DNA of 64,000 bases from an uncultured Bacteroidales bacterium. GTDB taxonomy: Bacteria > Bacteroidota > Bacteroidia > Bacteroidales > WCHB1-69. Below the pieces are notes generated by a model. It was not told where the DNA came from. It saw only the letters and a list, made by a program, of their open reading frames with translations, and made no database searches. Numbering within the stretch: position 1 is the first letter of the stretch; each line of letters begins with the position of its first letter. This document shows, piece by piece, positions 2,106 through 14,832 of this stretch. The DNA lies in NCBI GenBank assembly GCA_905233625.1, contig CAJOFJ010000019.1, positions 1-64,000 of the forward strand, in the 5' to 3' direction. A program made the position numbers and the translations under genes.

Positions 2106-5100
2106 ATGGCAGAAAAAAAATTTATGACATGCGACGGTAACTGCGCGGCTGCGCACGTAGCCTACATGTTTAGCGAAGTCGCCGCTATCTATCCTATTAC
2201 CCCCTCATCACCGATGGCAGAGTACATCGACGAGTGGAGTGCAGGCGGCAGAAAGAACATTTTCGGTGAGACCGTGAGAGTGGTCGAAATGCAATCAGAA
2301 GCCGGTGCTGCCGGTGCCGTTCACGGTTCACTGCAGGCTGGTGCCCTGACTACCACCTACACCGCTTCACAGGGTCTGTTGCTGATGATCCCCAACATGT
2401 ACAAGATTGCCGGTGAATTGCTCCCCGGTGTGTTCCATGTATCAGCACGTGCATTGGCTGCTCAGGCACTGTCTATCTTCGGTGACCACGCCGACGTGAT
2501 GAGCGCCCGCCAGACCGGTTTCGCCATGTTGGCTACCGGTTCCGTTCAGGAAATCATGGACTTGGCTCCTGTTGCCCACCTGGCAGCTATCGAAGGCCGC
2601 GTTCCTTTCCTGCACTTCTTCGACGGTTTCCGTACTTCTCACGAAATCCAGAAAGTGGAAGCCGCTGATCAGGATAAAATCCAGAAACTGGTGAACTGGA
2701 AAGCCCTGAAAGAATACCGTGACCGCGCTCTGAACCCCGAGCACCCTGTAACCCGAGGTACCGCTCAGAATCCGGATATCTATTTCCAGACCAGAGAATT
2801 GCAGAACAAATATTACGATGCTCTTCCCGACATCGTGGCCAAATACATGAAGAAACTGAGCAAAATCACGGGTCGTGAATATGCTCCGTTCACCTTCTAC
2901 GGCGCTAAAGACGCTACCGACATCATCATCGCTATGGGCTCCATCACCGACGTTATCAAGACCGTCATCGACAAGGAGAACAAGGCAGGCAAGAAACTCG
3001 GTCTCGTCAGCGTTCACCTCTATCGTCCTTTCAGCGTGAAATACCTCGGCGAAGTCCTTCCCGAAACGGTGAAGAGAATCTGCGTCCTTGACCGCACGAA
3101 AGAACCCGGTGCAAACGGCGATCCGCTGTATCTGGATGTGGTTGAAGCATTCGCCAACTGCAAAGACATCCCGGCCGAGAACAAACCCATGATCATCGGT
3201 GGTCGCTTCGGTCTCTCTTCAAAAGACACCACTCCTGCCCAGATTCTGGCAGTTTACAAGAACCTCGCCGCTCCCAAGCCGATGAACCAGTTCACCGTGG
3301 GTATCAACGACGATGTTACCCACCGTTCTCTCAAGGTTGGCAAGGAAATCTCCATCCTGCCGAAGGGCACTTTCGAAGCCAAATTCTATGGCCTCGGCGC
3401 TGACGGTACTGTAGGTGCTAACAAGAACAGTATCAAGATTATCGGTGACAACACCAACAAATACAGCCAGGCTTATTTCGACTATGACTCCAAGAAGTCA
3501 GGCGGTTACACCTGCTCACACCTCCGTTTCGGTGACCAGCCCATCCTGGCTCCTTACTTGGTAGGTACTCCCGACTTCGTAGCCGTTCATGTTCCTTCTT
3601 ACCTGAAGAAATATGACTGTCTGCGTGGTCTGAAGAAAAACGGTACTTTCCTCTACAACTCACCGTGGAGCGTAGCCGACACCAAGAAACATCTTCCCGA
3701 TTTCGTGAAGAAATACTTGGCTCTCAACAACATCAACATGTACATCATCGACGCTACCAAGATTGCCGCTGAGATTGGTCTGGGCAACCGTACCAACACC
3801 ATCCTGCAGAGCGCATTCTTCAAGATTTCAGGCGTTATTCCTTACGACCTCGCTGTACAGCAGATGAAGAAATTCATCGTTAAATCATACGGCAAGAAGG
3901 GTGAAGATATCGTTAACATGAACTATGCAGCTGTTGACCGTGGCGGTGAAATCACCAAGGTTGACATCCCCGCTGAATGGGCTAAATTGGATTGCACTAC
4001 CGACTTCGTTTTCGAACACAACGACAACGATCCCGAATTCATCAACAAGGTGATGCGCCCGATGGTTGCTCAGTGCGGTAACGACCTGCCAGTGAGTGCT
4101 TTCAAGGAAATCGTTGACGGTACATTCCCCGCTGGTACCACCGCTTACGAGAAACGTGGTGTGGCTACCGTGGTTCCCGAATGGAATCCTGCCAACTGTA
4201 TCCAGTGTAACCAGTGCTCCTTGGTATGTCCTCACGCTGCCATCCGTCCCGTGGTGATGACCGACGACGAAATGAAGAAAGCTCCTAAGGGCATGGCTGC
4301 CATCGACATCAAGGCTCCGAAGGAATTTGCCGGTATGCATTTCCGCATGCAGGTTTCCGTGATGGACTGCACCGGTTGCGGCAACTGCGCCGACGTATGT
4401 CCCGCCAAGGAAAAAGCATTGGTGATGAAACCTTTCGAAAGCCAGCTCGACGAAGCCAAGAACTGGGAGTATGGCCAGAAGAAAGTGACTTACAAAGACA
4501 ACCTCCTCGACAAATACGCCAGCGTGAAGAACAGCCAGTTCGCACAGCCGCTGTTTGAGTTCTCAGGCGCTTGCGCAGGTTGCGGTGAGACTCCTTATAT
4601 CAAGACTATCACCCAGCTGTTTGGCGAAAGAATGATCGTAGCCAACGCTACAGGTTGCTCCTCCATCTATGGTGGTTCAGCTCCCGCTACTCCGTACTGC
4701 AAGAACAACCGCAGCGGCAAGGGTGTTGCATGGGCTAACAGCTTGTTCGAAGACAACGCCGAATTCGGCCTCGGTATGGCTACCGCTACCCGCAAGATGC
4801 GCGACCGCGTAGAACGCATCATGAAGGAAGCTATCGCCAACTGCGAGTGCTGCAGCGCTGAATTGAAAGCTTTGTTCCAGGAATGGATTGACAACCGCGA
4901 ATGTGGTATCAAGACCGCTGAGTTGGCCGACAAGATCGTGGCCGCTTGCGAAAAATGCGGTTGCGACTACTGCAAGCAGATTGTGGACCTGAAAGACCAC
5001 TTGGTGAAGAAATCACAGTGGATCTTCGGTGGTGACGGTTGGGCATACGACATCGGTTTCGGCGGTTTGGACCATGTATTGGCCAGCGGCGAAGACGTGA

Positions 5101-5663
5101 ACGTGCTCGTACTTGACACCGAGGTTTACTCCAACACTGGTGGACAGTCCTCCAAGGCTACTCCCGCAGGTGCTGTGGCCAAATTTGCCGCTTCAGGTAA
5201 GAAGGTGCGCAAGAAAGACCTCGGCATGATTGCCAAGAGCTACGGCTATGTATATGTGGCACAGGTAGCTATGGGCGCCAACCAGGCACAGTACTTCAAA
5301 GCTATCAAGGAAGCTGAAGCTTATCCTGGACCGTCATTGGTAATCTGCTATGCTCCTTGTATCAACCACGGTATCAAGATCGGTATGGGTCACTCACAGA
5401 AAGAAGAGAAGCTGGCTGTGGATTGCGGTTACTGGCATCTGTGGCGCTTCAACCCCGCTGAGGAAGAAGCCGGCCAGAACGGTTTCCACTTGGACAGCAA
5501 GGAACCCAACTGGGCCGACTTCCAGAAGTTCATCCAGGGTGAGGTTCGTTACAACTCCCTGATGAAGACCTTCCCGGAAGAAGCCAAGGAACTCTTCGCC
5601 AAGACCGAGCAATTCGCTAAGCTGCGCTACGAAGGGTACAAGAAGTTGAGCGAAGGAAAATAA
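2106..5663 (+). CDS. nifJ: Pyruvate:ferredoxin (flavodoxin) oxidoreductase
   Basis: 1185 aa; YPITPSSPMAEYIDEW, 2x[4Fe-4S] CIQCNQCSLVCPHAAIRP / CTGCGNCADVCPAKEKAL, TPP domain GDGWAYDIGFGGLDHV. Confidence 0.97.
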   Translation: MAEKKFMTCDGNCAAAHVAYMFSEVAAIYPITPSSPMAEYIDEWSAGGRKNIFGETVRVVEMQSEAGAAGAVHGSLQAGALTTTYTASQGLLLMIPNMYKIAGELLPGVFHVSARALAAQALSIFGDHADVMSARQTGFAMLATGSVQEIMDLAPVAHLAAIEGRVPFLHFFDGFRTSHEIQKVEAADQDKIQKLVNWKALKEYRDRALNPEHPVTRGTAQNPDIYFQTRELQNKYYDALPDIVAKYMKKLSKITGREYAPFTFYGAKDATDIIIAMGSITDVIKTVIDKENKAGKKLGLVSVHLYRPFSVKYLGEVLPETVKRICVLDRTKEPGANGDPLYLDVVEAFANCKDIPAENKPMIIGGRFGLSSKDTTPAQILAVYKNLAAPKPMNQFTVGINDDVTHRSLKVGKEISILPKGTFEAKFYGLGADGTVGANKNSIKIIGDNTNKYSQAYFDYDSKKSGGYTCSHLRFGDQPILAPYLVGTPDFVAVHVPSYLKKYDCLRGLKKNGTFLYNSPWSVADTKKHLPDFVKKYLALNNINMYIIDATKIAAEIGLGNRTNTILQSAFFKISGVIPYDLAVQQMKKFIVKSYGKKGEDIVNMNYAAVDRGGEITKVDIPAEWAKLDCTTDFVFEHNDNDPEFINKVMRPMVAQCGNDLPVSAFKEIVDGTFPAGTTAYEKRGVATVVPEWNPANCIQCNQCSLVCPHAAIRPVVMTDDEMKKAPKGMAAIDIKAPKEFAGMHFRMQVSVMDCTGCGNCADVCPAKEKALVMKPFESQLDEAKNWEYGQKKVTYKDNLLDKYASVKNSQFAQPLFEFSGACAGCGETPYIKTITQLFGERMIVANATGCSSIYGGSAPATPYCKNNRSGKGVAWANSLFEDNAEFGLGMATATRKMRDRVERIMKEAIANCECCSAELKALFQEWIDNRECGIKTAELADKIVAACEKCGCDYCKQIVDLKDHLVKKSQWIFGGDGWAYDIGFGGLDHVLASGEDVNVLVLDTEVYSNTGGQSSKATPAGAVAKFAASGKKVRKKDLGMIAKSYGYVYVAQVAMGANQAQYFKAIKEAEAYPGPSLVICYAPCINHGIKIGMGHSQKEEKLAVDCGYWHLWRFNPAEEEAGQNGFHLDSKEPNWADFQKFIQGEVRYNSLMKTFPEEAKELFAKTEQFAKLRYEGYKKLSEGK

Positions 5664-5681
5664 TCCTTAATTGGAATTCTC

Positions 5682-5763: not shown

Positions 5764-6111
5764 CTATCTTCTAGTCGATGTCGGCAATAACATCAATGTT
5801 CCGTGTATTGTTATGAACAAATATGCTGAGAGCAAAAACCACTGCCCATCAGCTCCAATTCGCTCGTCACGAAGCAAAAAGAAGCCAAGTAGGGCAAATA
5901 TGACCCAGCAAATCAAACTAATAATATTCACTTTGCGAAAGTATTGATGTTCGGCTTCAGTGAATGGAGCCGATTTAATGCGTCGAATCATAATGACGGC
6001 TAATACACCGATAAGGACGCTAGGCAAATAAGCCAATTTTGGTAAAACGAGACAGAAGACCAGGCCAATGAGGCCTATGACCAATTGAATAATGCTTTCT
6101 TGCTTTTTCAT
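5764..6111 (-). CDS. Small membrane protein in sigma-factor operon
   Basis: 115 aa with several hydrophobic segments (IIQLVIGLIGLVFCLVLP...; NIISLICWVIFALLGFFLL). Confidence 0.7.
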   Translation of the reverse strand: MKKQESIIQLVIGLIGLVFCLVLPKLAYLPSVLIGVLAVIMIRRIKSAPFTEAEHQYFRKVNIISLICWVIFALLGFFLLRDERIGADGQWFLLSAYLFITIHGTLMLLPTSTRR

Positions 6112-6131
6112 TGTTGTAAGTTTTTTGATTG

Positions 6132-6686
6132 TTAATTATCTAATTGATTAATCTCTTCTTTGAGCTGTTTCATTTTGTGCCATTGAGGACGGCCGAATGA
6201 CAATAGCGCTACGATATAAAGACTGGTTGCAATAATCCAATATGTCATACTGTTTTTTATTCCAATGAATGAGGGTAGTGTAACCAACAGAACAGGAAGA
6301 AGAATCCATAGCCAAACCATTCTCTCGTAAACGAAATACAGGCGGTTATAGGCATTTGTAATCAAGTATTGATGTACACTGGTACCAAACTCGGTTTCTT
6401 TGGATTGGAACAAAAGCGTAAAGATGCCTTTCACCAGACAGTACAAGGACAAGACCATTATGACTGTCACAATACCAAAGTTGTATGGCGTCAGGAGAAT
6501 CTGTTTCAGTTGCAATACCATTAAAGTAGGTAGCAAAATTGCCACAACAAGGCAAACGACTCCTGAAATCCCATTTTTGTGCTGCTTAAACCATGATCTT
6601 GGAGGTAGTCTGAAGGATAAATCGGAATCTATCTTTGCTTCGTTTATGATGTTTTGTTTTAACAATGTCAAATTCTTGTCATTCAT
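6132..6686 (-). CDS. Membrane protein, possible anti-sigma/accessory factor
   Basis: 184 aa, multiple TM segments; start overlaps the 3' end of the sigma factor ORF by 8 nt. Confidence 0.7.
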   Translation of the reverse strand: MNDKNLTLLKQNIINEAKIDSDLSFRLPPRSWFKQHKNGISGVVCLVVAILLPTLMVLQLKQILLTPYNFGIVTVIMVLSLYCLVKGIFTLLFQSKETEFGTSVHQYLITNAYNRLYFVYERMVWLWILLPVLLVTLPSFIGIKNSMTYWIIATSLYIVALLSFGRPQWHKMKQLKEEINQLDN

Positions 6687-7170
6687 TATTGCTCATTTGT
6701 TTTAATTTCTGTTTAATACGTTGTATTTTCGTTCCCACGTTGCTAATTGATAGGCCCATGATATCAGCTATTTCCTTGTGGGATTTGTCATCCAAATAAA
6801 GGTATATCAAAGCTTGTTCTTCTCTGTTCAACTTGTGAATGAGTTGATAAAGCTGTTGTATCTGTTCTTGTTCTGTTGTAATTTCTGTAATTCTAATAAC
6901 TTCCTCGTTAATAGGTTTATGCAACAGATTGTCTTTTTTTCTGACTTGAGAGATGCAGACATTCAATGCCACACGATATACCCAAGTGGAAAGTTGACAA
7001 TCGGGACGTTTGACAAATTTCGGGTAACTTTTCCACAAATTGAGCGAAATTTCCTGAAACATGTCCTCGATAGAAAGGTTGGTACTCAATGATGCGTAAT
7101 AGCGACATACACTGATAATGCTTCGCTTATTTTCGTTGAGAAGTTTGAGAAATTGTTGTTCGTTAATCAT
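6679..7170 (-). CDS. ECF-type RNA polymerase sigma-70 factor
   Basis: ASLSTNLSIEDMFQEISLNLWKSYPKF...STWVYRVALNVCISQVRK...EEQALIYLYLDDKSHKEIADIMGLSISNVGTKIQRIKQKLK (regions 2 and 4). Confidence 0.93.
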   Translation of the reverse strand: MINEQQFLKLLNENKRSIISVCRYYASLSTNLSIEDMFQEISLNLWKSYPKFVKRPDCQLSTWVYRVALNVCISQVRKKDNLLHKPINEEVIRITEITTEQEQIQQLYQLIHKLNREEQALIYLYLDDKSHKEIADIMGLSISNVGTKIQRIKQKLKQMSNNE

Positions 7171-7431
7171 ACCTGCAAAGGTAATTTTTCTTGTTTATCG
7201 CATCAAGGAGAAAAAAATCACAAACAAAAATACATTTTTTAAAGATGATTAGTATGTTGCAATCGTGTTGTGCACTTTATTGGTTCTTTGTTTTGTTAAT
7301 ACTCTATGTTGTAGCCTCATATCACTAAATTATTCTTTAGTGTCTTTTCAAGTATTCAGCTTTATAGTTGATGTAATTTGTTTAATAAACTACCTTAAAA
7401 AGGAGGTGTTTCATATGAAAAATACAATTTC

Positions 7432-7544: not shown

Positions 7545-7662
7545 GCAAATGAAAAGAGTAACCCTTTTATGTTAAAGGTATTATTTTCTTTATTGTGTCA
7601 CAAACACCCGCAAACTCCACAGGTGACAGCCAGCCCTCTTCCTCAGCAGCATTGTACTATTG

Positions 7663-7690
7663 AAAAGGTTGTAGTGGTACAACCTTTTTT
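7663..7690 (+). terminator. Intrinsic terminator downstream of the tRNA-like element
   Basis: AAAGGTTGTA-GTGG-TACAACCTTTTTT. Confidence 0.7.
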
Positions 7691-7718
7691 ATATATTTTT
7701 ACTTCAATAGCCCCTATC

Positions 7719-7820
7719 TACATCTCATCTGCACCTCAACCTTCAGGCTGCCATTTTCATGTCCGAAGTGCATTTATTTTCCCCAAAAACTATAGTTGTC
7801 ATTGACCTGTCCCCTTGCCA
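7719..7820 (+). repeat. Dispersed ~100-bp repeat, copy A (direct repeat of 14732-14832)
   Basis: tacatctcatctgcacctcaaccttcaggctgccattttcatgtccgaagtgcatttattttccccaaaaactatagttgtcattgacctgtccccttgccat aligns to copy B with scattered mismatches. Confidence 0.75.
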
Positions 7821-7825
7821 TACAT

Positions 7826-9292
7826 TTATATCTCAACATAAATCGGCTCTTTATCTTCACATGCAGACTTGATTCCAAACAATACCTCATTATTTAGAAC
7901 TTTCCCCGAAAAATCTGCTGCTTTCAATAAAAGAATTGAACATAACTTATGTAGCCTTAAACTAACAGCAAACATTTCATCTTGCTGCGCTTGTATGGGC
8001 TTTTTCTCACTGCTTAAAGTACCATGGAAAGTCGAATTTCGCATATTTATAGCTTTCTTATCTGCTTTTGTCAACACATATCCATATTTAGAAAAACATG
8101 CCTCCAATTTGTTGCTATTGGGTGCACTGTTGAGATTGTTTGATATTCGCTTTGTGAAAATACGTTTTGCTTCTTCATCGAGCCTCTCTATGCCATCAAG
8201 TGCTTTCAACAAAACTGGAACAATTTCTTGATTATAACGGTCTTGTGGTACAGTTGGTGGCAAGTCTTCTTCATTCTTTAACAGCGTAGTCGTAATGGTT
8301 TCCAGCGTCACATGAAAGAATGGTTTCTGATACATAATATTCATCAAACTGCCATCTATCAACATACTGGTAGCAAGCAGTATATCATTTGATTTATAAC
8401 ACAGTTGAGCCAGTTTACTAAATGCGTCAATAGTAACTATTGACTCATCTTCATAATACCACTTCACCCCTTCACCAGGGTTGTTTTCAATCGATTCTAA
8501 GGCATATTGTTGATAATCATACTGTCTTAACCATTCAACTATAAGATTCTTTTGTGGGTTTAATATTTTATAAGGACAATACTTTGTCTTCCTCAAAGAC
8601 ATAACTTCAACTCCAATAATCTGAGAGAAATCCGACACATTTCCAGCTACATGAAAGCAATAATCACCATACCGCTTCCCCAGCACAAGACCCAACGCAT
8701 TAGTCACAGACAATACACGACGATCCATCTCGTCATAAGTAATAGCTTCAGTGGATTCAACAATCATCCAATGATGGTTCTCAACATTACTGGAATAAAC
8801 ATTCACCTCATGTCCATCCAAATTTGCGACAATCAAATTACTAAAATGATGCGAACCATAATCATCAGCGTAGTTACGACCTTTTACTTTTAGAAACCAT
8901 TCATTATTATCAATTGGATAGATAAAACGCCAATAATAGTTGTGTCCTTCTGCAATAGTGCTTTGCGTAAGCTTGTAAAAACGAACATCAAAGTGTTGTA
9001 CCAAATGACCATCCATTATTATTGTACCCTCAAAGGAAGCACTATAAGAAGGGGTCTTATAGATTGCATTATCTGTTTTTAGTTCCAGTTCAGGAAGATT
9101 CTCCATACTGGAAGCTGAAGGAACTACATTAATTGTCGAATCAAACTCCAAGTCAATATGTTCTGGATTAACAATCAACTTGTTGGAAACTGGCACACCC
9201 TCAATTCCGCCCACATTGCAATTTTCCATGTGGAGGATGTCATTAATGGCTTTTATAGTAGGTTTAATTATAAATCTGGATAATTCTGTCAT
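7826..9292 (-). CDS. HEPN-like (Apea-type) putative ribonuclease, last gene of four-gene putative defence operon
   Basis: 488 aa; C-terminal helical region with M-RNSTFH-G (Rx4H motif, 8024-8041); 4-nt ATGA overlap with upstream gene. Confidence 0.6.
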   Translation of the reverse strand: MTELSRFIIKPTIKAINDILHMENCNVGGIEGVPVSNKLIVNPEHIDLEFDSTINVVPSASSMENLPELELKTDNAIYKTPSYSASFEGTIIMDGHLVQHFDVRFYKLTQSTIAEGHNYYWRFIYPIDNNEWFLKVKGRNYADDYGSHHFSNLIVANLDGHEVNVYSSNVENHHWMIVESTEAITYDEMDRRVLSVTNALGLVLGKRYGDYCFHVAGNVSDFSQIIGVEVMSLRKTKYCPYKILNPQKNLIVEWLRQYDYQQYALESIENNPGEGVKWYYEDESIVTIDAFSKLAQLCYKSNDILLATSMLIDGSLMNIMYQKPFFHVTLETITTTLLKNEEDLPPTVPQDRYNQEIVPVLLKALDGIERLDEEAKRIFTKRISNNLNSAPNSNKLEACFSKYGYVLTKADKKAINMRNSTFHGTLSSEKKPIQAQQDEMFAVSLRLHKLCSILLLKAADFSGKVLNNEVLFGIKSACEDKEPIYVEI

Positions 9293-10518
9293 TTTGAGTC
9301 ATTTTCTTGCAATCTAAAAAACTCATCCACCAGATCACTCTTTGTAAAATACGCCATTAAAACTTTATACAGCACATTTTCGCTGGTTTCAGTTGTATAT
9401 GGTATTTTAGCATTATCAATCTTAAATGTTTTATAGCGAGTTCTTGCCTCGCCCTTGCTTTTAAGGCTGTTCCTTTTTGCCTCTATTCCGTTTTCGCTAT
9501 AAAATACATATTCATGGTCAATATGTGTGATATACTCTTTGCCACCAGCTTCAATATATTGCAAATGAACCACTTGCGTTACAAAATTATCCTGATCATG
9601 AGGCCCGTCCTCGAGAACTTCTTCAAACGTAATGCCTTTTTCATCTTGCTGGACTATCAGCCAGTCATTCACCCAATCTCTGTCATAATATTTGCTTATT
9701 CTGTCAATAGTAGTCAGTGAACCACTATAACTCACTCCAAAATCTTTTTCCTCAAACACACAACCTATTTCTGTGATTCCGTCTCCACAAATATTGTAAT
9801 CAGGTCTAATTGAAAGTTCAAACACATTTTCTTTTCGCCATCTGGCTATTAACATCAACAAATCCGATGGGATGTGACGTAAAAGCACGTGGGTGTTTAG
9901 TTGTGGTATATAAACCCTTGGAGGCATACAGTCTTTTAACTCCCAATCACTATCCAATTGCAACAGATGATAATGATCGTCTATGTGCCCTTCTACCTCT
10001 TTTGAATTAAGATAAGTTTCAAGTGGACACCCTTTATAATAATCCAAGAACTTACCGTATTGGCATTTCTTATAGTATTCAAAAAGATTTGAGAGTAGCA
10101 CCCATTTCCAATCTTTTAAATACGGTAAAAAATCGCAAAGTGAACGACAATTATTTTCCACATACCAATCCCAATCCAAAACAGAAAGATATTCCTTCGT
10201 TTTGACTATGGAGTTTTCACAATAGGCAAACTCATAATCATTCTCTGCCATCAATTGCTCCCTTGTCCGTTTGCTTATTTCCTCTTTTTTCTCCCTTCTT
10301 ACTTGTTCAAGGACAAATTCTCTAAACGATTTATCATTCACTAATAAAGAGATTTGTTCAATAATCTCGTCTTTCTGGGCTGTTTCATTGAATATCTTTA
10401 TGAAATCGAAATCGTTTTTTTGTCCAGCCCTTTGATAGATGGCTGTTTCGTGATCGAAATAACGTTTTCGACATTCTTCAAAAAATGTGACGATGGTTTT
10501 ACCGAGCAACTCTTCCAT
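9289..10518 (-). CDS. Hypothetical protein of putative defence operon (409 aa)
   Basis: Long ORF coupled at both ends (ATGA at 9289-9292; TAATG at 10518). No family recognised. Confidence 0.8.
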   Translation of the reverse strand: MEELLGKTIVTFFEECRKRYFDHETAIYQRAGQKNDFDFIKIFNETAQKDEIIEQISLLVNDKSFREFVLEQVRREKKEEISKRTREQLMAENDYEFAYCENSIVKTKEYLSVLDWDWYVENNCRSLCDFLPYLKDWKWVLLSNLFEYYKKCQYGKFLDYYKGCPLETYLNSKEVEGHIDDHYHLLQLDSDWELKDCMPPRVYIPQLNTHVLLRHIPSDLLMLIARWRKENVFELSIRPDYNICGDGITEIGCVFEEKDFGVSYSGSLTTIDRISKYYDRDWVNDWLIVQQDEKGITFEEVLEDGPHDQDNFVTQVVHLQYIEAGGKEYITHIDHEYVFYSENGIEAKRNSLKSKGEARTRYKTFKIDNAKIPYTTETSENVLYKVLMAYFTKSDLVDEFFRLQENDSK

Positions 10519-12800
10519 TACTTATCCGATTGATGGTTAACAAAAGGCTTTATCGTTTCCACATCGTCAGTTTTCCCTTCGTCCGTCGTCTTATAGTGAA
10601 CCTTCAAACATATCATATCATATTGTTCCTTAAAGAACAGCTTAGGTGCCCACAAAGCATGGAAAACGGAATACATATTTTTCTCGTCACCCAATTTCTT
10701 CAGGTATTCTTCTGTAATGGTATCTTCGTGTCCTTCCACTTTCTGAACCGACATCCATAACCCATATTCATTGAATTTATCAAGCTCCATTGATACCTTC
10801 TGTTCTTCACTAGGTTCTTGGAACTCAATGTAAGGTCTGTCTTCCTTTAGTGTTATATATATGCGCCTGGAGAAATATTGCGACGGGCAGTCCAACAGCA
10901 TGATTTTCATTCCCCGGTAGCTATATATGCGGTCTTGTTCTTTTTTCAGTTCTCCAACCCTGTCCATATAATAATCCAAGGAGATACCAAAAGCGATTGC
11001 ATAGTGCCTTCCGTTAACCTGTAGTTTGTCAAATGCATCAAAAAGAAGCCCTGAATCAATTGTGTAATCAGCTTGCATACGTTCTTGGAAGAATGAACTT
11101 GCAAAAAGATGACTAAACGTGTGCCACATACTGCCAAACTCACATTCTTCAATTCCAACATGACTTATATCAGGATTGTCTTGGAAGGCAGTACTGGGAT
11201 ACAATTGGCTAATTGATGAATCAAGATTATAGCATGTATTCCTATCAAACCTTTTACCCCATATATCACCGAAGGGTGACATTGCCATCAACAAACGACC
11301 ACTTACCTCATTTTCAAGCTTTTTAATCTTATCTGGATTATTATGTTGGTGCTGTTTGAGGTATTTGATTTTTTCGTCGATACTGCTTTGTATGCCTTTT
11401 AATATTTGTTCTGGCGATTGTATCACTTCATTTTCAAGGTTATTGGCCGGATCAAGAATCTCATCCATATCGTTTATTCGTATGGAAGCCAATGCTTCTT
11501 TGTTATTATTTATCCTTTCTATCCAATACTTCAACACGTCTAAATCCCTTTTATACTTGGCCAATTTTGCCTGGTTATCAGGCAATCCCATTGTGCGGAA
11601 AACAAAATCTCTTCCATAAGGGTAATCAATAACATACAATCGATAGAACAATAATGCCAAGTAAGAATTGGCAGCTCCTATTATCTTACCACCCGTTATG
11701 CCATGCATATTAGGCATTGGGTATCGTTCTTCATAATAAGTCACCTCCCATAGCCTGTCCTCATTCAAATAACCAAACAAATGGAGAATATGTGCTAAAT
11801 CGGACGGAACCAATGGATATTTGGGAGGCTGCGACTGGGTATAGAACAGCATTTGCTCAAGAAGACCATATTTACCCTGTTGAAGCAGCATAGCACACAG
11901 CATCACATGAAACTCTTCGAACTTTATGCGTTGTTTGTGTCTATCTTCAACTTGCTCTTCCGTGTAATGCTCGTTTGTTTCCTCATCAATTTCAAACTCT
12001 GAAATTTCATTCATGAAGAATTCAAACTTCTGTGAGGCTGATTTCCAGTAGGCCATTATCCACTCGTCTCTGTTGTAATACAATTGCAGACGAAGATTTC
12101 TCCAAAGTATTCTATATGTTTTGTCGGTTACTATGCTTTTGTATAAAATCAATGATGTAAGCAACGAATTCCCATTATTCACAGATATAGGCTTACGTTC
12201 CCCTTTGCAAAGGTTCTCGTTAATTCTTGTTACAGCATCATAGAAATAATCATCCAATTCAAGCGGTCTCCCCTTGCATAAGATTAGTTTTTTTGATACA
12301 TAATCATACCAGCGTTCATATACAGATTGAACTAAGTTCTCATCTGCCGAAGCAAGAAGCACTGATGTTAAGTCTGACCATTGGGTGAAATATTCTGCCT
12401 CTTTTTCTGTCTTTCCTGCTTTTGCTGAAGCATCGTAGTCGTCCAGAATACGAGTTTGCAGTTTGCCCGCATCATAATAAGTCAAGATCATATTGAAAAG
12501 ACGGAAGGCAAAATAGATCAACACTACTGCTGCCAAACATTGTACAGCAATCAGGTAACGTGCATGCTGACACCCATCCATCAAAAAAGGAAACAAAACT
12601 GCTAACACCAAATTGAGTATCAGCAAAACTTTGAAACCCTTAAAAGCTTTCTCCTCTAAAAAGCGTGCTGTTAATTTTGTGGAGTGATACTTAACATCAA
12701 TCTTTTCAATGCAGCCCAATATCAATGGATATGACAGACCAAATAGAGCAGATAATATCGATAAAACTCCGCTGTATGTGTAATTGAGAAAGTCAAACAT
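10518..12800 (-). CDS. Large protein with N-terminal TM helices, putative defence operon (760 aa)
   Basis: Hydrophobic segments near N-terminus (SILSALFGLSYPLILGCI; VLLILNLVLAVLFPFLM; LIAVQCLAAVVLIYFAFRLF) followed by a ~640-aa soluble region; no known domain recognised. Confidence 0.8.
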   Translation of the reverse strand: MFDFLNYTYSGVLSILSALFGLSYPLILGCIEKIDVKYHSTKLTARFLEEKAFKGFKVLLILNLVLAVLFPFLMDGCQHARYLIAVQCLAAVVLIYFAFRLFNMILTYYDAGKLQTRILDDYDASAKAGKTEKEAEYFTQWSDLTSVLLASADENLVQSVYERWYDYVSKKLILCKGRPLELDDYFYDAVTRINENLCKGERKPISVNNGNSLLTSLILYKSIVTDKTYRILWRNLRLQLYYNRDEWIMAYWKSASQKFEFFMNEISEFEIDEETNEHYTEEQVEDRHKQRIKFEEFHVMLCAMLLQQGKYGLLEQMLFYTQSQPPKYPLVPSDLAHILHLFGYLNEDRLWEVTYYEERYPMPNMHGITGGKIIGAANSYLALLFYRLYVIDYPYGRDFVFRTMGLPDNQAKLAKYKRDLDVLKYWIERINNNKEALASIRINDMDEILDPANNLENEVIQSPEQILKGIQSSIDEKIKYLKQHQHNNPDKIKKLENEVSGRLLMAMSPFGDIWGKRFDRNTCYNLDSSISQLYPSTAFQDNPDISHVGIEECEFGSMWHTFSHLFASSFFQERMQADYTIDSGLLFDAFDKLQVNGRHYAIAFGISLDYYMDRVGELKKEQDRIYSYRGMKIMLLDCPSQYFSRRIYITLKEDRPYIEFQEPSEEQKVSMELDKFNEYGLWMSVQKVEGHEDTITEEYLKKLGDEKNMYSVFHALWAPKLFFKEQYDMICLKVHYKTTDEGKTDDVETIKPFVNHQSDK

Positions 12801-12824
12801 GGTTCACTTCTTTAAGTTTAGTTT

Positions 12825-13127
12825 TTATCGCCCAACATTTCCACTTTGGTCAAGAAAACAATTGATAAAATCAACATCTCGTTTCATCATATCATTATGC
12901 TCATGTTGAACACGTCGAATGGAGTCCAATTGATCTGATACATTATTCAATATTGCCGTCAAACTGTCAGCTTGTGTGCGTGCAGTTGAATCCAGACTGG
13001 CCTTTTGCCTAACCTCTTGTTTTCTCGCTTTGTTAAATCGAATGTCATTTCTGATAGCAAGAAATACTATGGCTGCACCCAAAATGCCCAAAGCTAAGAT
13101 AACAATTTTATTTGCATTCTTCATCAA
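12825..13127 (-). CDS. Small single-TM/coiled-coil protein, first gene of putative defence operon (100 aa)
   Basis: N-terminal TM KIVILALGILGAAIVFLAI then charged helical region; 24 bp upstream of the 760-aa gene. Confidence 0.7.
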   Translation of the reverse strand: MMKNANKIVILALGILGAAIVFLAIRNDIRFNKARKQEVRQKASLDSTARTQADSLTAILNNVSDQLDSIRRVQHEHNDMMKRDVDFINCFLDQSGNVGR

Positions 13128-13257
13128 TTATCCTCTTTTAATACAAAACCCTTCCTACATTAGAAAATCATCTCCTCCACGACCAAAACAAATAGCTACA
13201 AACCACCCTCCTCCCCCACATACTTTCAAACCCTTCATAATTATCAACTGTCAATTA

Positions 13258-13659
13258 TCAATTGTCAACTATCAAAATCCCCTCCACCTCATGCTCCACA
13301 AACGGCCCTTCCTTGCACTCGAAGATGACGGAACCCGGCTCCAGGGCTTCTACGGTGTGCAAGACATTCTTTCCTACATTCACGCCGTAGCGGCCTTCCG
13401 ATGGGTTGAGGACCATGTCGTCGATAATGGTGCCGTCGTCGTTGTAGGTGATGACACGTATCCTACCACGCAACACAACAAATGTCTCCTCTTTCTCCGG
13501 ATGGCGATGAATGGGGATGTTGGCACCCGGTTCCACGGCATTCAGAAAACGGTGGCACTTCTCATCCAGACTCTGATGAAAGTTCAGATTCATCCGCAGC
13601 CGGGGCGATGCTTGGGCCCGGGCAGTCAAACAGTCAAGTATCTCATTGTCTATAACCAT
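13258..13659 (-). CDS. WbuC family cupin fold metalloprotein
   Basis: MNLNFHQSLDEKCHRFLNAVEPGANIPIHRHPEKEETFVVLRGRIRVI...HTVEALEPGSVIFECKEGPF. Confidence 0.88.
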   Translation of the reverse strand: MVIDNEILDCLTARAQASPRLRMNLNFHQSLDEKCHRFLNAVEPGANIPIHRHPEKEETFVVLRGRIRVITYNDDGTIIDDMVLNPSEGRYGVNVGKNVLHTVEALEPGSVIFECKEGPFVEHEVEGILIVDN

Positions 13660-13849: not shown

Positions 13850-14690
13850 TTATGGCTTCAACAAATTGATCGGAGCCACATACACTCCGTCTTCACGCCT
13901 GTATGCACCACCAACAGCAGTCAGCACCAACAAGAACGATGGTGCCTTCTCATCGCTTTTCTCCACAATCTTGTCACGAAGCGTCTTCAGCGATTTTGCC
14001 CCGTCGTCAATCAAGTCGTCACCGCCAAGCTTAATCTCAATACCACCCCAACGTCCATCGTGCGCTCATTGCTCTGGCGTATATCCGATATGATGGTCGA
14101 TACCGCCGCCTCGCTCGAAATATTGCGGGCATAGCTCCTCAGAATCATCCTCATCACCTCGGGTTTCTTGTTGCGGAACCGCTCGTTCTCGCTATCCTCA
14201 AACACGAATAATCCGTTATTAGTACTGTTGCGATAAATTTCTATAGGAATTAACCACTGGACAGGATATTACAGAAAGATGTAACCTCGGAGAGGTGTGA
14301 TGCAAGCAGTGCAATTAACACCACACAAGCCGTCAGGCGTAGTGTGGTGGATGAGACACTCACGCTATACAAGCATCTCGGAGAGATGCGACAAGCTATG
14401 CTGGATGGTAGAGAGATGTCGCATATCTCCGATATGCACCTGATGCATTGCCCCTATTGTCACCAAACTGCGCTTCGCTTGTATGGTGTTAATTGCGCCT
14501 GTCGGCACATCTCATGCCTTCGGCATGCCGTCATAGCCAATACAAAATATACTGTCATCATTGCACTTTCATTCAAATCAAAAAAACAAAAAAACCGCAC
14601 AAAAACATTTGAATCAACATGTTAAATATTGATGCTGAAAATTTATCGCAACAGTACTAATCCGTTATAATAGTTTTTCGTGATTTTAAA
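13850..14690 (-). pseudogene. C-terminal remnant of a DUF4143-like ATPase, frameshifted and interrupted by a MITE
   Basis: Reading across the MITE gives FKITKNYYNG|LFVFEDSENERFRNKKPEVMRMILRSYARNISSEAAVSTIISDIRQSNERTMD, then a different frame RWGGIEIKLGGDDLIDDGAKSL...EDGVYVAPINLLKP*. No intact upstream portion. Confidence 0.75.
14220..14659. mobile_element. 440-bp MITE-like non-autonomous element with 21-bp TIRs and 9-bp TSD
   Basis: Left end TAGTACTGTTGCGATAAATTT..., right end ...AAATTTATCGCAACAGTACTA; flanked by ATCCGTTAT (14211-14219) and ATCCGTTAT (14660-14668); no transposase ORF inside. Confidence 0.9.
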
Positions 14691-14731
14691 CTCCCAAGAT
14701 TTTCAATTAGAAATTCCCAAGATTTTCAATT

Positions 14732-14832
14732 TACATCACATCTGCACCCTGATCTTCAGGAAGCCATGTCCAAGTCTGAAATGCATTTATTCCCCAAAAA
14801 ATACAGGTGTCACAGACCTGTCCCCCCGCCAT
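14732..14832 (+). repeat. Dispersed ~100-bp repeat, copy B
   Basis: tacatcacatctgcaccctgatcttcaggaagccatgtccaagtctgaaatgcatttattccccaaaaaatacaggtgtcacagacctgtccccccgccat. Confidence 0.75.

Follow-up and report, generated by a model that had tools for sequence, protein, structure and literature searches.

A four-gene cassette with an ApeA-like HEPN protein in a defence hotspot between nifJ and wbuC of an uncultured Bacteroidales bacterium

Between nifJ and a wbuC-type cupin gene, the genome of an uncultured Bacteroidales bacterium carries four closely packed minus-strand genes, here designated P100, P760, P409 and P488, that have been exchanged as one unit. They are very probably phage-defence cargo, because the same slot holds other anti-phage systems in related species; this assignment is drawn from their position and from a single recognizable domain. 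The account that we favour, and consider somewhat better than an even bet, is that they form a co-transcribed, horizontally exchanged defence cassette of separately mobile genes, in which P488 is an ApeA-like abortive-infection RNase. The principal features are as follows, with coordinates referring to the window, the whole stretch of 64,000 nucleotides that was analysed.

2106 to 5663, plus strand: nifJ/PFOR, the left core flank, named from its sequence
5764 to 7170, minus strand: ECF sigma factor and two small membrane proteins, common to the congener G300
7592 to 13278, no strand: exchanged segment, from blastn of the window against locus L089; the cargo in G300 is unrelated
7826 to 9292, minus strand: P488, 488 aa, ApeA-like HEPN protein and predicted RNase effector (Pfam, PADLOC and an eight-member alignment)
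9289 to 10518, minus strand: P409, 409 aa, soluble, of a family without a name, with solitary members on plasmids, prophages and ICEs of proteobacteria
10518 to 12800, minus strand: P760, 760 aa, inner-membrane protein with three N-terminal TM segments and a soluble region of about 650 aa, of a sporadic Bacteroidota family
12825 to 13124, minus strand: P100, 99 aa from the ATG at 13124, small single-TM protein with a charged helical tail
13258 to 13659, minus strand: wbuC-type cupin, the right core flank (NCBIfam TIGR04366, 7.6e-44)

The ORF list bears out the four packed minus-strand ORFs of the preliminary description, and the spacings it gave are also correct: 24 bp separate P100 from P760, P760 and P409 overlap by 1 bp at TAATG, and P409 and P488 overlap by 4 bp at ATGA, in support of the translational coupling that had been proposed. 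The only adjustment is at the start of P100, where the ORF at 12825-13127 encodes 100 aa from a TTG and the next codon is an ATG, making 13124 the likely start. The four-gene unit has a GC content of 36-38%, versus about 45-54% for the regions of nifJ and wbuC on either side. A promoter scan gave no excess over shuffled sequences (24 found versus 32.5 expected).

The limits of the unit are evident from comparison with the congener G300, in which homology to the window extends up to 7591 and resumes at 13279, with unrelated genes between, including a PDC-M56A gene. Homology thus breaks just outside the four genes, and we therefore conclude that the exchange involved all four as one unit. The sigma-factor block lies outside that unit because it is common to G300, where the DNA is 93% identical to window positions 5936-7256 and the upstream ECF sigma factor is 89% identical. 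A search of the genus recovered the wbuC cupin in five of eight congeners at 87-93% identity, and homology with these five stops at the wbuC stop codon or within about 20 bp of it; in G304, G305 and G307 it breaks off at the stop of nifJ (5653-5670) and picks up again at that of wbuC (13260-13273).

The wbuC flank is present in seven other species of the family, and five of them (L090, L091, L093, L105 and L106) have nifJ at the opposite end; the contig of G300 stops short of nifJ, with the sigma-factor block as left flank, and in G303 a PFOR fragment lies beyond wbuC on the other side, at the contig end. In these seven species (three genera) the interval contains different cargo, mostly defence, and none of it matches 7826-13127 at the DNA level. 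The PADLOC scan identified a type II restriction-modification methyltransferase in G304 and G307 (MTase_II, 2.7e-162 and 1.1e-221), accompanied in G304 by PDC-S49 (6.4e-120), and the PDC-M56A match in G300 (4.7e-161); PDC-S49 and PDC-M56A are PADLOC candidate systems. The scan covered G300, G303, G304 and G307, and the gene set of G305 is the same as that of G307. Of the two genomes from other genera, G324 carries a TIR-TPR-like protein (PDB 9m0n, 6.4e-70; the TIR part recognized by reading the sequence) and G312 a HamB-like helicase (PDB 8vx9, 1.6e-29), and both carry a CcrM-like methyltransferase (3.7e-116). The 283-aa partner of the G312 helicase has no PDB match, and the pair is likely a Hachiman system, judging from the helicase. 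G303 has a 1210-aa protein with a hydrophobic N-terminus beside wbuC (L092:1212-4844), which has no PADLOC or PDB match and is a candidate new defence gene. Defined from eight species with one genome each, the nifJ-wbuC interval fits the description of core defence hotspots in PMC10250203, and no report of it was found among the papers searched. The defence association suggested in the preliminary description is thereby made stronger, because the slot in which the four genes sit is a defence hotspot.

A 106-bp repeat at 7716-7821 on the plus strand lies 4 bp past the P488 stop, and its sole other genomic copy, at 14729-14832, is 79% alike; these direct repeats bracket the cassette together with wbuC, the right copy also occurs natively in L090 (8217-8320), and the pair is possibly a trace of exchange. 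Fragments of nifJ, mostly of its 3' end, occur in or beside the cargo at L089:3838-4129, L105:3688-3930, L093:6445-6531 and L091:11113-11161, as if they were end scars of repeated cargo arrival. The stretch TTGACAATTGATAATTGACAGTTGATAATTA, repeat-like and unique in the window, occupies 13238-13268 at the wbuC stop, the right limit of exchange. A KilA-N ORF at 476-1327, left of nifJ, has relatives of 68% identity within the slot to the right of nifJ in three species (L090:17773-18588, L093:17440-18255 and L105:432-1247). A perfect 23-nt inverted repeat (14218-14240 and 14639-14661, 398 bp apart) is MITE-like and encloses a 93-aa ORF that is 98.9% conserved in two congeners. The ORF6N neighbour of the preliminary description is also found by Pfam.

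The preliminary description had recognized a HEPN-like motif in P488, RNSTFHG, which corresponds to residues 418-424. The features of this region are as follows.

7907 to 8251, minus strand: HEPN_Apea match, P488 residues 348-462 (Pfam)
8024 to 8041, minus strand: predicted HEPN catalytic motif R418-N-S-T-F-H423 (family alignment, and hhalign columns against ApeA)

The Pfam match to HEPN_Apea (PF18739; E=7.6e-5) scores 23.6 bits and so falls 0.8 bits short of the cut-off of 24.4, and the PADLOC Cas13-ApeA model matches at E=3.1e-4. Within the P488 family, P488 itself is the sole member to match PF18739 at E<0.01, and it does so below cut-off. The eight members are about 20% identical (17-21% overall identity for the relatives of P488), and only 11 columns of their alignment are invariant, among them R418, N419, H423 and G424. 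HEPN motifs follow an Rx4-6H rule with a polar residue after the arginine (PMC3710099), a rule that RNSTFH fits, and the RN...HG pattern is kept in all eight members. Because of the Pfam and PADLOC matches and the invariance of these four residues, we take the predicted motif to be more than a chance match. The HEPN region is C-terminal; the N-terminal 270 or so residues have no family match, and hydropathy gives no TM segment. An AlphaFold model of the C-terminus alone, from a single sequence, is nearly all-helical with a mean pLDDT of 38.4, too low to interpret. Pfam does not find ApeA_NTD1 in P488, and two genuine ApeA proteins of the same order have strong matches to both ApeA models; when P488 is aligned to ApeA by hhalign the RN...H residues correspond column for column, and the match as a whole is weak (E 0.091). 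P488 may therefore work like ApeA, yet we do not class it as ApeA, because ApeA_NTD1 is absent and the profile-profile match is weak.

Relatives of P488 were found in G170, in five other genomes of the 396 sampled in the phylum, and on two plasmids (Chryseobacterium and Hymenobacter); those in Bacteroidota are solitary, with neither P409 nor P760 nearby. The preliminary description had suggested looking for proximity to known defence genes, and such genes lie near some relatives of P488, P760 and P409. For P488, strong PADLOC neighbours occur at four of eight loci: Gabija and AbiD (L026), a type II methyltransferase (L036), an AriA/HEC-01-like ATPase (L039) and PDC-S73 (L040). At E<=1e-15 the regions around P488 relatives gave matches to 189 PADLOC models, versus 25 in control loci (eight stretches of 16 kb, taken at fixed positions in four of the genomes concerned), where the matches were mostly to one type I methyltransferase and to AriAB and mad2/mad3-like genes. 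The enrichment is modest, because the control loci also hold some defence genes and related models match the same gene.

Hydropathy supports the earlier description of P760 and P100 as membrane proteins. P100 has one TM segment (residues 7-25); P760 has three (residues 13-31, 56-74 and 83-101), followed by the soluble region.

12498 to 12764, minus strand: P760 residues 13-101, three predicted TM segments (Kyte-Doolittle)

P760 matches no Pfam, PADLOC or NCBIfam family, and a circular tendon repeat match in the PDB was discounted, as no single matched stretch passed the limit. Sampling of 246 other genomes from the order turned up relatives of P760 in 7, and sampling of 395 others from the phylum turned them up in 6; their identities range from 67% to below 20%, and all of these loci are without P409 and P488. 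The closest, in a sheep omasum MAG (L012), is an intact ORF of 759 aa that sits between clpP-like and Sel1-like genes. Most relatives are flanked by unrelated chromosomal genes (L012, L016, L018 and L051), while others neighbour type I restriction-modification genes (L053), AbiL-like genes (L054) or PDC-S26 (L020). The relative at L053:7946-10328 is split into two ORFs directly upstream of the type I restriction-modification operon and is probably frameshifted, and an array of repeats with near-identical ORFs of 76-85 aa lies near the relative in L020 (1-3700). P100 has no sequence relative that we could find. The P760 relative in L055 has, 2 bp upstream, a gene for a 202-aa protein with one TM segment and a coiled-coil-like tail; homology of this protein to P100 was rejected (E 2.2), the similarity being one of architecture only, and a match of P100 to the BhlA holin family in Pfam is unsupported (E 0.088).

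P409 has no TM segment by hydropathy and no significant Pfam, NCBIfam or PADLOC family; a match to Noda_Vmethyltr (E 0.0019) is far below cut-off and was dismissed as chance, and an AlphaFold model from five sequences (mean pLDDT 43.7) is too poor to give a fold. Its alignments define the following region.

9316 to 9873, minus strand: conserved C-terminal region of P409, residues 216-401, containing H318, H332-x-D334-H335-E336, KTFKIDN and IP (alignments)

The conserved H318, H332-x-D334-H335-E336 and KTFKIDN suggest a putative active or binding site. Proteins encoded on 60 plasmids, mostly of Enterobacteriaceae and Vibrio, share 32-37% identity with this region, and relatives are present in 102 of 5,426 complete E. 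coli genomes, 100 of them chromosomal; both of the E. coli loci inspected adjoin a MobQ relaxase within an integrated element. Other relatives are in prophage or ICE-like contigs. In Bacteroidota P409 is rare: among 396 genomes of the phylum and 104 of the family, it was found in the window only. In the viral contigs searched P409 is the only cassette protein with relatives, those of P760 and P488 both being absent, and the phage records searched contain no relative of P409 or P488. Neighbours of P409 relatives include Shedu and Gabija (L014 and L024), an nSTAND-like ATPase (L042) and, in a prophage, umuDC (L025); no relative of P488 or P760 was found near them.

As several defence genes joined in one operon, the cassette might operate as follows. 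The N-terminal region of P488 would sense a cue of infection, upon which the C-terminal HEPN domain would be activated, probably as a dimer, and would cut RNA by means of R418 and H423, leading to translation arrest; this sequence of events is modelled on the HEPN family. P760, perhaps with P100, would be a separate membrane-anchored defence protein, presumably with a trigger and an effect of its own, since P760 appears to act alone elsewhere. P409 would be a separate soluble protein, drawn from its plasmid, prophage and ICE family, with a role in defence or counter-defence.

We find this arrangement more likely than a single new four-part machine, and we favour separate genes stacked together over one system by a fair margin. 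The preliminary description had assigned the parts of sensor, adaptor and RNase, and an integrated system of that kind, with P100 and P760 as membrane sensor, P409 as relay or restraint and P488 as RNase effector, would have to have been assembled recently from three older families. The location in a defence hotspot is in keeping with it, and it is kept in contention by the overlapping starts of P760, P409 and P488 and by the fact that these four genes alone were exchanged as a single unit; overlaps of 1 bp and 4 bp point to a shared function and count against mere stacking. However, all relatives found are solitary, P760 being intact without partners in L012 and relatives of P409 and P488 occurring without each other and without P760, and no pair of these genes was seen a second time among the genomes searched. 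Across these genomes the four-gene synteny is consequently rejected as a conserved feature, and the proposed division of labour lacks comparative support because relatives of P760, P409 and P488 each occur without the other two. We therefore regard the integrated system as rather unlikely. It is a still more doubtful proposition that the cassette is a new defence system in which P760 with P100 and the phage- or plasmid-derived P409 control the ApeA-like HEPN RNase, three independent genes having been recruited into a coupled operon; the membrane may on this proposal govern RNase activity.

HEPN RNases are common as toxins of toxin-antitoxin systems (PMC3710099), and the 4-nt overlap of P409 with P488 and the presence of P409 relatives on plasmids, ICEs and prophages would suit a toxin-antitoxin or element-maintenance cassette in which P409 would act as antidote to a P488 toxin and defence would be a side role or no role at all. 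We think this improbable, as relatives of P488 are found where P409 is missing and those of P409 lack a HEPN partner, and P488, with its large N-terminal region and HEPN domain, resembles single-gene ApeA and not a small toxin. That the four are ordinary accessory genes, with a role in housekeeping or at the cell surface, and lie in a variable slot by chance would agree with the unrelated chromosomal neighbours of most P760 relatives, but is very improbable given that most congeners have defence cargo in this slot, that P488 has the HEPN motif and that defence genes lie near its relatives.

Three protein families are available for direct test: P488, a HEPN protein outside ApeA, the membrane protein P760 and the mobile-element protein P409, whose family is common to Bacteroidota and Enterobacteriaceae. 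What is new here is that the four genes fill a defence hotspot. P760 and P409 represent two families without a name. More broadly, cargo cloned species by species from the nifJ-wbuC hotspot of this Bacteroidales family should yield anti-phage systems, and should the parts act together, the cassette would be an example of single-gene defences being welded into multi-gene systems.

No named system is known to have this gene set, in agreement with the preliminary description, but three known arrangements resemble parts of it. ApeA, a single-gene anti-phage HEPN protein (PF18739 with ApeA_NTD1, PF18862), is like P488 in its length of about 450-490 aa, its large N-terminal region and its C-terminal HEPN Rx4H motif, and relatives of P488 are likewise solitary genes near other defence genes; P488 differs in the ApeA_NTD1 that it lacks, in its sub-cut-off HEPN_Apea and weak profile-profile matches, and in its place here at the end of a coupled set of four genes. 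Membrane-associated HEPN proteins combine TM segments and HEPN in one polypeptide (PMC3710099) and share with this locus the idea of HEPN RNase activity at the inner membrane, whereas here the TM protein has a gene of its own, and its relatives never turned up together with the HEPN gene. Finally, in cDHS1 and cDHS2 of P. aeruginosa conserved core genes flank a variable segment whose defence systems differ between isolates and whose GC content is below that of the chromosome (PMC10250203). The hotspot described here belongs to another phylum, has nifJ and wbuC as its flanks and often carries one system as cargo, but it has the same organization of core flanks, varying defence cargo and lower GC content.
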